Source: Phascolarctobacterium sp.
GTDB taxonomy: Bacteria; Bacillota; Negativicutes; Acidaminococcales; Acidaminococcaceae
Direction of reading: 5' to 3'
DNA: 53,602 nucleotides
Assembly: GCA_017467905.1 (NCBI GenBank)
Contig: JAFUKD010000025.1
Span: 1-53,602 of the forward strand
Shown: piece by piece, positions 2,042 to 44,231 of the stretch
Numbering within the stretch: the first letter of the stretch is position 1
Layout: every line of letters begins with the position of its first letter
Notes under the pieces: model-generated
The model's database searches: none
What the model was told of the DNA's origin: nothing
Seen by the model: only the letters and a program-made list of their open reading frames with translations
Made by a program: the position numbers and the translations under genes

Positions 2042-2069
2042 ATTATAGCACGTTTGTCCCCCCCATCAA
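2042..2069 (-). promoter_or_regulatory. ompM copy 2 promoter with G7 tract in the spacer
   Basis: On the minus strand a TTGATG -35 box (2064-2069) and TGC-TATAAT -10 box (2042-2047) are 16 bp apart. A run of seven G (2058-2064 on the minus strand) overlaps the end of the -35 box and fills the start of the spacer, so gain or loss of one G would change spacer length and promoter strength. The rest of the gene-free stretch, 2070-2165, shows nothing recognisable. Confidence 0.65.
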
Positions 2070-20237: not shown

Positions 20238-22208
20238 TTAGAAGGAGTATTCAGCACCAATCAAGAAGCGACGAGATTGAGCGGGAGTTTGGTAGTAACC
20301 GTTATCAACCCCAGCTTGTTCACAATATGCTTCATTAAGCAAATTATAACCTTTAGCAAAAACTTTTAAATTTTTTGCCGCCTTATATGTTAGTGCTAAA
20401 TCAATAGTCAAATAGCTACTATCAAGATAAGAAATCTTACCATTAGGATACAAAGTACCACCATATCCGTAATGTGCATTAGAAGCTGTAGAGCCGCCAG
20501 TTGCAGTACGTAACCAAATATTTGCATCCCATTTAGCATCATGGTATCTAATGCCCATACGATATGTGTTAGGCATATAATTAAAATCTTTTAGTTCCCC
20601 TTGCCCATCCATATTATTTTTTACTTGTACATAAGTATATGATGCCGTCAAATCTACATTATCGTTCAATTTATGATTAACGGATAATTCCATACCTTTT
20701 TTCTTCTGTTCATCAACATTTGTTGCATATGTGGCAGTATAATTAGAATCATAAATCCAATCAATAGCATCTTCTAATTCACTTTCAAAATAACTAATCG
20801 CAACATCAGTTCTATCGTTTATTCTAGAACTGTATCCAACTGTCCAAGTTTCACCAGTTTCAGCTACTAAATCAGGATTGCCAACAGTCCATGCATCTGG
20901 CCAATTATAATATAAATCATCTAATGTAGGCGCTTTAAAAACCTGACCCCAATTGAAGTACATATGTGAATAATCATTAAATTTCTTATTCAATCCAGCA
21001 CTTAATGTAGTTTCATCACCAGCTTTGCTATGGTCATCATAACGCACACCAGCATTTAAAGTCCAAGAAGGCGAAAATTCCCAAGTATCGTTTATAAAAA
21101 TGGCCTTGCTGTTAATTTCTTCATTGTAGTTAGGTGTTACAGCATAATTATTATTCCAGTCTTCATATGAAGAACTAGCTTCTGATTCTCTCCAAGACGC
21201 ACCTATAACAAGTTCATTTTTATCAGAGACATCAATGGCTTGTTGTAAATCAACACCATTAGTCTTTTCTTCTAATTGTCCAGAGTAATAATAATCCCAC
21301 TCATTGTGATAAAATTGTAAGTAACCTTTGTCTTTATTATTTAACGTCCAATCATAACGCATATACAAATTATCCGTTCTTTTATCCATTGGATAAATAG
21401 AGCTAGAATCTGCATACATATTCTGTATTCCTTCAAATTTACTATAATCATACCCAATAGTTAAGTTACTACCCTCATTCAATTCCTGTTCAAGTTTTAA
21501 AGAAACTTTCTCGTCATCAAAATCCACAGGCGCCATCCATCTTTTAGTAGTATCTGTTTTATAATCTCTATATTTATAATAATCTTGTTTATATTTGGAT
21601 GCAGAAACGGTTACACCAGTTTTATCAGTTTTAAAAGAATACATTGCAGCCATATCTTCAGCCCCATTAGAACCAAATGCTAAAGATACTTTACCAAAAT
21701 TTCTGTTTGCTTTTTTAGTAATTACGTTAACTACGCCACCCACAGCGTCAGAACCATAAAGTGCACCACCAGCACCTTTCATAACTTCAATACGTTCAAT
21801 CATACTAATATCAGGCATTTGATTTAAATCATAACTAGACCTTCCATTCATAGTTCCCATATCATATCCTACACGTCTACCATCAACCAGAACCAGAACG
21901 CGGTCATCGCCATTTAAAAGTATTGCTTTCTCATTTGTGCCATTACCTTTATCTAAAACATTAGCACCAGAAACATCTTTTAATACATCTGCAACTTCGG
22001 TATAATGTCTGCTTTCAATTTGTTCAGCAGTTACAACAGAAATATTTGCCGGAGTGTCTACCAATTTGGTTTCGGTTCTTGTCGCAGTTACTACATACTC
22101 GTCCAGAGTAAAGGTATCCAGTTCACTTGCGTGTACTGGTGTGCCCCCCCATTGCACAGAGCCTAAAATAAGCGCTGTCATCAGCATTGCCTTAGTCATC
22201 TTTTTCAT
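20238..22208 (-). CDS. TonB-dependent outer-membrane receptor 1
   Basis: A 656-residue receptor. Order: signal peptide (MKKMTKAMLMTALILGSVQW..., ending before ASELD), TonB box region (TFTLDEYVVTATR), plug domain about 45-165 with LVLVDGRRVGYD and VMKGAGGALYGSDAVGGVVNVITKK, then a 22-strand-type barrel ending RRFLIGAEYSF. The start chosen has AGGAG 9 nt upstream; an ATG 10 codons earlier has none. The codons for Trp-Gly-Gly in the signal peptide form a run of seven G (22144-22150). The nearest upstream genes are cbiZ and a TIM-barrel gene, so corrinoid uptake (BtuB-like) is possible but the ligand is unproven. Confidence 0.92.
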   Translation of the reverse strand: MKKMTKAMLMTALILGSVQWGGTPVHASELDTFTLDEYVVTATRTETKLVDTPANISVVTAEQIESRHYTEVADVLKDVSGANVLDKGNGTNEKAILLNGDDRVLVLVDGRRVGYDMGTMNGRSSYDLNQMPDISMIERIEVMKGAGGALYGSDAVGGVVNVITKKANRNFGKVSLAFGSNGAEDMAAMYSFKTDKTGVTVSASKYKQDYYKYRDYKTDTTKRWMAPVDFDDEKVSLKLEQELNEGSNLTIGYDYSKFEGIQNMYADSSSIYPMDKRTDNLYMRYDWTLNNKDKGYLQFYHNEWDYYYSGQLEEKTNGVDLQQAIDVSDKNELVIGASWRESEASSSYEDWNNNYAVTPNYNEEINSKAIFINDTWEFSPSWTLNAGVRYDDHSKAGDETTLSAGLNKKFNDYSHMYFNWGQVFKAPTLDDLYYNWPDAWTVGNPDLVAETGETWTVGYSSRINDRTDVAISYFESELEDAIDWIYDSNYTATYATNVDEQKKKGMELSVNHKLNDNVDLTASYTYVQVKNNMDGQGELKDFNYMPNTYRMGIRYHDAKWDANIWLRTATGGSTASNAHYGYGGTLYPNGKISYLDSSYLTIDLALTYKAAKNLKVFAKGYNLLNEAYCEQAGVDNGYYQTPAQSRRFLIGAEYSF

Positions 22209-22262
22209 AACTTCATCTCCTAAAATTTTATTGAACATTTCCTATTAAGTGAACTTAAAGCC

Positions 22263-39957: not shown

Positions 39958-40452
39958 TTAATACTTAGAATTTACTATAGCAATATCCAAATTTGCAAAA
40001 GGCTTGGTTCCGCTGTAAAAGCTTACCTTAGCCTTGGCAACATCATGCTTATAAACATCTTCCCGCGGAACGGCAAGCTCCAAGTTCAAGGGAACGAAGT
40101 CTCCCCATTTACTTTTTTCTAAAACTTCGGCAGCTCCAAGCTTTTTCCACACGCCCTTCTTGCTGCCTTGGGAAGCAAAATTTTCTATGCCTTCAATTTT
40201 ACAGCGCAGGTCCTGAACATCTGCGGGAACCTTGCAGCGTAGGTACAAGGTCATAATATTGGGCTCTACCAAATATTTAACAATGCCCATCTTCCCCACG
40301 TCCATAGTATAAGCGTACTCGCCGCCCTGTTCCATGGAAAATTTATAAAAAGTTCTATCACCATTTATCTGTCCCTTGAAGGCACCCATGGCAAAAACCA
40401 AAAGCACTGCCCCCAAAGCCAACAGAAGATTTTTCATATTCAATTTATTCAT
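39958..40452 (-). CDS. Exported protein of unknown function
   Basis: A 164-residue protein with an N-terminal hydrophobic segment (LLLALGAVLLVFAMGAF, about 9-25) that is a signal peptide or anchor. The rest is a beta-rich soluble domain without cysteines other than two in RCKVPADVQDLRCK. Not recognised. Its start overlaps the Cys-rich small protein gene by 8 bp, so it is the third gene of an operon with the membrane Fe-S protein. Confidence 0.75.
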   Translation of the reverse strand: MNKLNMKNLLLALGAVLLVFAMGAFKGQINGDRTFYKFSMEQGGEYAYTMDVGKMGIVKYLVEPNIMTLYLRCKVPADVQDLRCKIEGIENFASQGSKKGVWKKLGAAEVLEKSKWGDFVPLNLELAVPREDVYKHDVAKAKVSFYSGTKPFANLDIAIVNSKY

Positions 40453-40647: not shown

Positions 40648-41457
40648 TTACCTCTTGTATTTAATTGCCTTTACAGGGCATGCGTTGATACATTCGCCAC
40701 ACAAAATGCAATGATGCACATTATTGGCAGCCTTCTTGTCGCGAATATACATTGCTCCCATGGGGCAAGCCTTCACACATTTTTGACAGCCAATACATTT
40801 ACAGCGCTGCACCTTCAATTTAAAAGAACAGGAAAATTTACAGCCAAGGGCATATACAAGATTTTGTATCGCGCCAACAGGGCACATAAAATTACAGAAG
40901 CCTCTTCCGCCTTTTGTAAACACGCCAAAAATAACCACCCATACAAGCGCGGTTAGGATAAGGCTGGAAGTTAAGGACACAAAATATCCAAAGAGAAAAT
41001 AATTTACGAACAGGTCAAACAAAAAGAAGTTACAATAAACGCAGGCAATAACCGTATCGAAAAAAGGAATGAGTACAAAACCCGCCAGCATACCGTAACG
41101 AACGGGAGCAACCTCCACATACTTTGTCCAATCAATTTGAAAACGTGCTGGAACAAGCCTGCTTAAATATTCTGTAGAAGCACCGGCAGGACACAGCTTG
41201 CCGCAATACACAGGCCCAAAAATAAAACTAACAGCCAACAAAATAAGGAAGCAAACTATAAACAGGGGAGCCTGATTAAATAGCTTGCCGTCAAGTAAAT
41301 GTTCAGTTTGAATTCTAAAGCACAGGCTGTGAATGGTAAGCGGCAACCACTTACCCGTCATAGCGTAGCAAATAGTTTTTTGAAACAGCGCAAAGGGAGC
41401 GTAGAAGAGCACGAAGCCCAAAACATATCCCAAAAGCCGTTTAATTTGAAAAGACAT
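40648..41457 (-). CDS. Membrane 4Fe-4S protein, NapH/NosR-like
   Basis: A 269-residue protein with about five membrane helices. It has CGKLCPAG (Cys85, 89) and FCNFMCPVGA (Cys188, 192), the paired Cys motifs of NapH/CcoG-type quinol or electron-transfer proteins. A C-terminal bacterial ferredoxin domain binds two 4Fe-4S clusters (Cys221/224/227/231 and Cys250/253/256/260). The ATG has AGGTGA 5 nt upstream; a TTG five codons earlier is part of that site. It heads a three-gene operon downstream of TonB receptor 2 and may pass electrons across the inner membrane to an envelope step. Confidence 0.87.
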   Translation of the reverse strand: MSFQIKRLLGYVLGFVLFYAPFALFQKTICYAMTGKWLPLTIHSLCFRIQTEHLLDGKLFNQAPLFIVCFLILLAVSFIFGPVYCGKLCPAGASTEYLSRLVPARFQIDWTKYVEVAPVRYGMLAGFVLIPFFDTVIACVYCNFFLFDLFVNYFLFGYFVSLTSSLILTALVWVVIFGVFTKGGRGFCNFMCPVGAIQNLVYALGCKFSCSFKLKVQRCKCIGCQKCVKACPMGAMYIRDKKAANNVHHCILCGECINACPVKAIKYKR

Positions 41458-41767
41458 TGTTGTCACCTTCAAGTTTATTTATCTAATACCCCTAAAAATT
41501 TTATAAAATACCATCCAAAGCACGCAGGCTTCACCAGAAAACTTAGGTTGGTGTTGGTAGATGTGTATTTTATTGGTGGAATGTTCTTAATGAAAAATAG
41601 TCAGTATTTTGTTTTAGCAAGCTCACAGTTAAACCTGCAGCCTTTAAGATGATATTTTATAAAAATTACTTAGGAGCGAGAGTGAATAATGAAAAGATGT
41701 GTAATGTAAAGCAGTACGGGGCGTTAGCCCCATACCGTTATTACCAAAAAGTTAAAGCATTGGGAAA
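41458..41767 (-). other. Intergenic stretch between receptor 2 and the Fe-S operon
   Basis: It holds a GGGGC/GCCCC hairpin (41718-41731), probably the end of receptor 2 transcription but with no T-run, and a CACTCTCGCT sequence (41675-41684), two mismatches from the CACTCTCACA motif. No convincing promoter for the Fe-S operon was found, so read-through from receptor 2 is possible. Confidence 0.5.
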
Positions 41768-43962
41768 TTAGAAGGAGTAGCGGAGACTTACGCCATAAGT
41801 TCTTCCATCAGTAGCCTCATCAGCATAATATTCTCTATCCAACAAATTATTTACAGCGAATTGTAATGTCATATCTTTCGCAATTTCATAATTAATTGCA
41901 GTATTTACAACAAAGTATGCTTCTTCAGCACCAAGTCCACTCATATTATCTCCTGGATTTTGACGTTCACTTACATATTGACAATCCAATAATGCATTCC
42001 ACTTGTCACAATTATATTGAATGCCAGCATGGAATAAATGTTTTGGAATATCATAGTTGTTTTCTTTCTCACCATCTTCTTCTAATTTGCCTTGTTGCCA
42101 AGCGTAATTCATATAACCACTAAATTTATCACTAAACTTGTGATTGATTTCAAATTCTACACCATTGCGTTCTTCCTTGTTATAATTCATATATTTTTTA
42201 ACACCTTTACCTTTAAAGGTTTGACCAGGCAATACATCGGAAGCTGCAATCTTATCATCAGTATCTACATGATATACTGTAATACCTAAGTTTGTTTTAT
42301 CAGAAATTCTCTTTTTCATACCGATTTCAAAGGTATCGGAAGTTTCAGGATCAAGTTCAGGATTGGGTACATACCAATATTTACTAAATTCAGAATATCT
42401 ATATATCTTATAGATTTCAGGTGGATTGAAAGAATGACCATAAGATACATAATAGTTAGTATTATCATCCGCTTTATAATCAAGAGCAATTTTCGGACTT
42501 AATTCTGTATAAGTTTCAGAATCAGAAGTTTCATTATATTCACTTCCTGATTCTGTACTCCAGAAAGTTCCCTCTCCTTTTTTATAGTAATCAAGACGAG
42601 CTCCCAAATATAAAGTTAAAGGTTCGTTAATCTTATATTCATCTTGAATAAATAATGCTGTATTTTTAACTTCACCATCATCTTGAGCATACTGCCCAAT
42701 TTTAGAATTATAGTCTTTCCAGTGACTTAAATTCCATCTATCTTGCGTCATTTCTTCTTGTTTAAAATTAGCACCAACTACAATTGTGTGTTTACCAATA
42801 TTCTCCCAAGCTTTTTCTATACTAAAATCATAAACTTTGCCTGGATGGTCAGAGTAATGTCCAATGCCTGTCCAATCTAATGCGTTATAATCCTCAGGAA
42901 CATCAGCACTTGTATATCCATCTACTTTATTGTTCACATAACTAAAAGCTGTTTTAAATTTATTATCCGTATCTTGATAAATTACTGAGTGTGTTTCTCG
43001 TTCCAAGAAATTTTCATAACCATAAAAATTACCAGTCTTAAATGATACCTGATTACCATTTTGGGTAGTTGCACTACCGTTATAAACAGGATTTCCCTTG
43101 CTATCTTTTACATAACTAAAAGCATTTCTATAGTTCCAATCGGATTCCGTCTTAGTAAAAATATATTTCAAAGATTTGCTATCATCAAAATTATATTTAA
43201 CATTTGCATTATAATTTTCATGTTCCCAAGCACGTTCTCCTCTACCACCGACAACATAATATCCATCTTTTAATAATGGTAAATTAGCATCATAAGTACC
43301 GGTACCATCAGAAGGACTCTTGGTCACATAATATCCATCATAACCATCAGATTTTCTATTTTCATATCCTAATCCAAAAGATAATTTTTCATTTACTTTA
43401 GAATTAACCTGTACGGACTTTTTCCAAGTGCTATTGCTACCGTAAGAAACAACTACATCGCCATGCGCGCCTAATTTTTTTGCTTCTTTTGTAGTAATAT
43501 TAATGACACCTGCTACAGCATGTCCACCATAAATAGAGGAAGCAGCCCCACGTAAAACTTCTATACGTTCAATATTTTCTACATTAATGGAATTTAAATT
43601 TGTTGTACCATCATAGGTGGTATTCATCTGTTGTCCATCAACCAACATAAGAATATCCGTACCACCAAAACCTCTCATTTGAATACTACTTTGCGCGGTA
43701 GGATTCATATACACACCTGGTAAATATTGTAACGCCTCTTGCATAGAGTTGACATTTCTCTCTTCAATATCTTTTGCAGTGACAACGCTTACGCTTGCGG
43801 GAACTTCTTGTAATTCTTTTAATGTTCTTGTCGCTGTTACTACGTACTCATCAAGGGCAAAGGTGTTGAGGCTTTCAGCAGCGTTTACTGCTGTACCCCC
43901 CCAATGCACAAACCTGTAATAAGTGCTGTCATCAGTAGACTTTTGCTAATGTGTCGTTTCAT
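41768..43962 (-). CDS. TonB-dependent outer-membrane receptor 2, frameshifted in the signal peptide
   Basis: The mature part is intact (read open from 43909): TonB box region NTFALDEYVVTATR, plug with LMLVDGQQMNTT and VLRGAASSIYGGHAVAGVINITTKE, and a barrel ending YGVSLRYSF. The proper start is ATG at 43962 with AGGAG upstream (MKRHISKSLLMTALITG), but that frame stops at TAA after 25 codons. One base is missing relative to receptor 1, whose matching text is GSVQWGGTPVHAS against HWGGTAVNAA here. A run of seven G (43896-43902) lies at the junction; one extra G would restore the frame. It could be a phase-OFF state, a fixed mutation or a sequencing error. Ligand unknown. Confidence 0.85.
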
Positions 43963-44012
43963 CGTACTTCATCTCCTAAAAATTTTATCAACATCTCCCA
44001 TAAGAATATTGC

Positions 44013-44054
44013 ATCGCCCTATCTTACAAGGTCACGATAAAATATGTGAGAGTG
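44013..44054 (-). ncRNA. Leader RNA element of TonB receptor 2
   Basis: On the minus strand CACTCTCACA (44045-44054) is followed by a hairpin: outer stem ATCGT/GCGAT, 2-nt bulge, inner stem CCT/AGG, 8-nt loop TGTAAGAT (44013-44038). Receptor 1 has the same layout with different but still pairing stems. Confidence 0.55.
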
Positions 44055-44109
44055 AAAGTTTTTACACTTTATCTTATCAGGAAGTGTTACTAACTTGAAC
44101 TAACAGTAA

Positions 44110-44139
44110 TGATAAGGTATATACTTGCTTTACTGTCAA
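44110..44139 (-). promoter_or_regulatory. Probable promoter of TonB receptor 2
   Basis: On the minus strand TTGACA (44134-44139) with TTATCA at 18 bp (44110-44115). The -10 box is poor, so activation may be needed. It places the leader motif about 48 nt past the start. Confidence 0.5.
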
Positions 44140-44161
44140 GCACTTATTTTTAAAGTTCCAA

Positions 44162-44177
44162 TGTTTCACGTGAAACA
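44162..44177. promoter_or_regulatory. parS-type ParB binding site 4
   Basis: Perfect TGTTTCACGTGAAACA between receptor 2 and the cvfB terminator. Confidence 0.9.
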
Positions 44178-44196
44178 ATTGCTCAACATAAAAAAA

Positions 44197-44218
44197 GCTG
44201 ACCTCTTTCGAAGTCAGC
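44197..44218 (-). terminator. Terminator of the nadD-cvfB operon
   Basis: GCTGAC / GTCAGC with further internal pairing, followed by seven T on the minus strand. Confidence 0.88.
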
Positions 44219-44231
44219 AGTAAAATTTTTC

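Follow-up and report, generated by a model that had tools for sequence, protein, structure and literature searches.

Repeat length within signal-peptide codons sets the reading frame of exported proteins in Neisseria opa and Helicobacter oipA. In the HmbR and HpuA genes of Neisseria meningitidis, the length of a poly-G tract within the ORF switches a component of a haemoglobin receptor, and substitutions at the tract edge change the absolute but not the effective tract length (PMC3786947). In meningococcal porA, it is the length of a poly-G tract between the −35 and −10 elements that sets expression (PMC3639595). A survey of the Neisseria phasome used a cut-off of G9, yet cites switching of siaD at G7 (PMC5953494). 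A limited literature search, which took in few subscription papers, found no account of phase variation by simple repeats for Negativicutes or for Phascolarctobacterium, in line with the first-pass annotation of the DNA studied here, which knew of none for receptors of this class.

We analyzed a stretch of 53,602 nt (the window; contig JAFUKD010000025.1) from a Phascolarctobacterium sp. genome (GCA_017467905.1, denoted G000), a draft assembly of 1.84 Mb in 41 contigs with an estimated contamination of 4.4%. The locus of receptor 2 holds the following features:

43903 to 44228, minus strand: leader with its 5′ region, in synteny with G001 and G002 and 82–83% identical to them
43885 to 43962, minus strand: receptor 2 leader ORF, 25 codons (MKRHISKSLLMTALITGLCIGGVQQ) and then TAA
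43896 to 43902, minus strand: G7 tract among the signal-peptide codons, the site of the slippage proposed for receptor 2
41768 to 43909, minus strand: receptor 2 body frame, TonB-dependent receptor with Plug and beta-barrel
40648 to 41472, minus strand: NapH-like 4Fe-4S membrane protein, which other genera also have linked to their receptor 2 orthologues
39958 to 40452, minus strand: protein of 164 aa, of no family, whose N terminus has a hydrophobic stretch, in a conserved neighborhood

The leader has the strong ribosome site and the early stop that had been claimed for it: AGGAG at 43977–43973 precedes the ATG at 43962–43960, and the frame ends at TAA (43887–43885) after the 25 codons. The sequence around the tract on the minus strand is ...TTTGTGCATT-GGGGGGG-TACAGCAGTAA, and we confirmed that a hypothetical G8 in place of the G7 would read CIGGGTAVNAA and bring the gene into frame. 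A simple repeat is therefore situated within the coding region, where one register connects the start to the body. The mature receptor, also as claimed, is intact in another frame, which is open from 43909 to 41768 (713 codons) and encodes a TonB receptor of ~700 aa with both PF07715 and PF00593 above their cut-offs; no further inactivating lesion was found in these 713 codons, a result with which a recent pseudogene would still be compatible. Receptor 2 resembles TIGR01785 (heme/haemoglobin receptors, its best NCBIfam resemblance) over the full length, and its score of 254.1 bits is below the curated cut-off of 316.85, so that it is classed here as a TonB-dependent outer-membrane receptor and not as a heme/haemoglobin receptor.

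No alternative start rescues receptor 2, because an ATG in the body frame at −70 runs into a stop after 8 codons, and GTG 43909 has neither a ribosome site nor a signal peptide. As assembled, receptor 2 is OFF, and its body has no start or signal peptide in the present allele. One receptor 2 orthologue was found among the genome contigs searched, in a Phascolarctobacterium MAG, and a search of viral contigs for the locus gave no match. A distant homologue in another genome (L005, G049:C5:194292-196364) has one TAA within its body.

We hypothesize that the G7 run in the signal-peptide codons would gain or lose a G through slipped-strand mispairing, so that one register would join the leader to the receptor and the other two would stop early, as the present one does at the TAA that follows codon 25; the run would be a module common to a set of receptors in this genus and in some related genera. 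Receptor 2 is on this reading, which we hold to be the probable one, a candidate for a TonB receptor subject to slippage-driven translational phase variation and caught in its OFF register. The reading supposes a useful rate of slippage in living cells, and selection for slippage.

We read the 5′ ends of PF07715 receptors in nine genomes, with G001, G002, and G003 representing three sister species. The whole G000 assembly has ~32 distinct runs of seven or more G, of which six coincide with the starts of TonB-receptor matches. A G7 tract sits toward the end of the signal peptide in 6/9 TonB-receptor genes of G000, five of the six being in frame, and the leaders read QWGGTPVHA, QWGGTAVHA, and QWGGTPVNA, in addition to that of receptor 2. 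One of these in-frame genes is in the window:

20238 to 22238, minus strand: receptor 1, a TonB-dependent receptor that is in frame (ON)
22144 to 22150, minus strand: G7 tract in the receptor 1 leader (SVQWGGTPVHAS), in frame

Receptors of G001, G002, G003, G005 (genus g3), and G029 (genus g17) also carry the G7 leader tract, and in G023 (genus g8) a receptor leader has G6 rather than G7. A loose leader motif (G6 plus the downstream leader codons) matched 17 times in 4 of 380 Negativicutes genomes, six times in G000, in every case there at the leader of a receptor gene, and it was absent from the other 376; the reversed motif, used as a control, gave zero matches in the same 380 genomes. The tract is thus beyond chance. 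A variant of the motif matched, within the family, only G029. The genus has 15 tract receptors, of which just one is OFF, and all those in frame have exactly G7. Because the leaders of paralogues are alike, shared ancestry or gene conversion could keep the tract without any selection for switching.

Codon choice bears on whether the run is maintained as such. In 25/25 tract receptors, GGG is the first Gly codon to follow the hydrophobic stretch, and the second varies (GGT, GGC, GGA, or GGG). In the stretches sampled (320 kb of G000 and 400 kb of G005), GGG accounts for 6.7% of Gly codons in G000 and 11.2% in G005, and for 19/494 (3.8%) and 31/712 (4.4%), respectively, of the first codons of Gly-Gly pairs. 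Receptors that have Gly-Gly at this place and no tract (L093, L140, L154, and L155) use GGC or GGA there. The 25 counts are not independent, the receptors being related; still, leader DNA is only ~60% alike between the three genera concerned, and the recurrence of GGG across them suggests that the run has been maintained as such.

Receptors one G out of frame are present in G005. The G7 paralogues of that genome read IWGGTVVHAEE, and L132 and L139 are in frame with TGG GGG GGC. L135, with G6, is out of frame by −1 G and ends MLNKSLGKSVLMTALITGSVIWGAR; L138, with G8, is out of frame by +1 G and reads MLEKSMGISALMIALVTGNVIWGGYCSTC, ending ...VIWGGYCSTC*. The bodies of both are open (that of L138 as far as its sequence was read, its frame being given as 634 codons). 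G6, G7, and G8 tracts with ON and OFF alleles thus occur among G005 paralogues, a variation that, with one genome per species, is between paralogues and species, and we read the one-G differences of L135 and L138 as a probable direct sign of slippage in a relative. In all, 3/25 tract receptors are OFF against no clear case among ~50 non-tract receptors (Fisher test: P ~ 0.03, computed with 3/24), a P-value that would be weakened by the non-tract receptor L168. L168 (G034:C70:117318) is a TonB receptor plug for which no clear start lies upstream in frame, possibly because of a frameshift at a place other than a G tract. A G7 tract is also found in the leader of a non-receptor secreted protein of G005 (L226 2874, MKNFISMFLMTSLLLGGMTF...), in frame.

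Comparison with syntenic loci places the mismatch in or at the tract. The synteny at the receptor 2 locus includes cvfB and the NapH-like gene, together with genes that we take to be nadD-yqeK-LytR-rsfS. The 5′ region and leader of G001 and G002 are 82–83% identical to the window over 341 nt, similarity stops a few bases beyond the G7 tract, and the receptor bodies differ thereafter; a T-to-G change at the Trp codon is common to the window leader and the syntenic leaders. The first-pass annotation had proposed that a base was missing just upstream of the run and that T3/T4 variants should be counted. A base is indeed missing relative to the paralogous receptor 1, but not relative to the syntenic leaders: that of G001 shares GGTTTG and that of G002 shares TGCATT-G7, and both are in frame with a different receptor (CIGGAQG.FAADD). 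As these leaders have the same T count, loss of a T from the window leader is not supported, and we rejected such a loss upstream of the run as the only account. The mismatch would instead have arisen through loss of a G from an in-frame G8 (the supposed form being ATT GGG GGG GGT ACA), or through exchange of the receptor body at the tract.

The second of these origins leads to the strongest alternative, which we judge to be unlikely: receptor bodies were exchanged at the leader, mismatched registers were joined (a leader read GGG GGG G.. and a body read.GG GGG GGT), and the product is a broken gene heading to decay. That exchange happens at this place is indicated by G001 and G002, which have a different body and extra genes behind the same leader, with similarity ending just past the tract, and by G003, where the promoter is present at the syntenic place and the receptor is absent. 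Also in favor of exchange, the window leader is most similar to L117 (0.89), and for the 24 nt that follow the tract the best matches are L106 and L108 (0.88). However, the body of receptor 2 shows no other lesion, a single G at the tract separates the OFF receptors of G005 from their in-frame paralogues, a difference for which no exchange is necessary, and a mismatch born of recombination would still be a single slip from the in-frame state.

The interval between cvfB and the NapH-like gene is a replacement hot spot, with a different receptor and extra genes, or no receptor, behind the same promoter and leader (L232 7462–16038 in G002, L233 in G001, and L237 12500–14300 in G003). The genes after the different receptor in G001 and G002 are presumably binding-protein and nitrogenase-like genes. 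In other genera, too, receptor 2 has the NapH-like and 164-aa genes as its neighbors.

An error of sequencing or assembly in the homopolymer, with the real gene in frame, is a natural suspicion for a lesion of one base in such a run in a draft of 41 contigs with some estimated contamination, but we consider it improbable. Elsewhere in G000, G tracts of equal length are in frame and their ORFs are intact, the five other receptor leaders among them. No frameshift was found in the sampled stretches at other ORF-internal G/C runs (runs of six or more bases in G000, and of six or seven in G005), and the assemblies thus have no general fault at runs of this kind. In G005, 2/6 receptor tracts are out of frame, whereas the coding G/C tracts outside receptors are unbroken. 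Homopolymer runs can promote slippage, and recoding by an RNA polymerase or ribosome that slips on the G run, giving a constant low in-frame fraction from unchanged DNA, could also keep a shared tract, but it is very improbable, since length variants of the tract exist in DNA, and since the DNA already has most tract receptors in frame, so that slippage of this kind could do no more there than lose product.

The case for phase variation at receptor 2 is strengthened by the shared tract, the OFF receptors of G005 at −1 and +1 G, the unbroken control tracts, and the intact bodies. Counted against it are the shortness of the G7, the uniform G7 of the in-frame receptors in the genus, and the single OFF gene among 15. 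The tract is below the G9 cut-off of the Neisseria survey and as long as the G7 at which siaD is reported to switch (PMC5953494). The earlier proposal of a phase-variable gene in the OFF state gains from this comparative evidence, and receptor 2 keeps the status of a candidate. Like HmbR and HpuA, it has poly-G in the reading frame of a receptor, and its full-length resemblance is to the heme/haemoglobin family; unlike them, it scores below the cut-off for that family, its tract is a G7 in signal-peptide codons that is common to many paralogous receptors of a Negativicute host, and its switching is presumed. With opa and oipA it shares a repeat within leader codons that governs the frame, although those genes use CTCTT or CT repeats and do not encode TonB receptors.

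Nearly all of the G tracts of seven or more in G000 are in receptor leaders or promoter spacers. Runs of 7–8 outnumber runs of 6 in the sampled stretches of G000, which were chosen for holding tracts. An intact ORF with a G7 close to its start (L196 9802–9808), whose product we take to resemble a lipid A acyltransferase, may be another tract gene. Some 20 further runs of G7–G10 have a −35-like hexamer on one side and TATAAT on the other, at a spacer length of 16 or 17 (L189, L191, L193, L195, L197, and L199–L208), many of them upstream of genes for SLH-domain OmpM-type porins, proteins with autotransporter-type leaders, family 2 glycosyltransferases, Xre regulators, and an MBOAT-like protein. 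One is in the window:

2058 to 2064, minus strand: G7 between TTGATG and TATAAT, spacer 16, upstream of an SLH-domain OmpM-type porin gene (472–1770)

Other G000 copies of this porin promoter tract have G7 or G8. The pattern recalls meningococcal porA in the position of the tract, in some cases before SLH-domain (OmpM-type) genes, and differs from it in that the tracts are shorter and the promoters are recognized by consensus only; with that qualification, the tract at 2058–2064 is a candidate for porA-like transcriptional phase variation. The genus shows the promoter-spacer pattern in each of its four species; the pattern is also present in G019 and is rare elsewhere, and the reversed pattern was never found in the genomes searched. 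An Rfam search behind the promoter-type tracts found no stable RNA genes, only unrelated tRNAs and raiA.

Taken together, these observations might point to a phasome in gut Acidaminococcaceae related to Phascolarctobacterium, an idea that we put forward tentatively. Each of several TonB receptors would have, in a common poly-G leader module, an independent frame switch, which would also be a point of body exchange behind a fixed promoter and leader, and the tuning of porins, of autotransporter-like proteins, and of glycosylation at the surface would fall to porA-like spacers. Most of what is known of simple-repeat phase variation comes from host-adapted Proteobacteria; if the idea is true, the strategy arose in a distant lineage, the diderm Firmicutes of the gut, and strain-level states of the surface and of nutrient uptake in these commensals would be set by tract lengths that are collapsed in metagenome assemblies.
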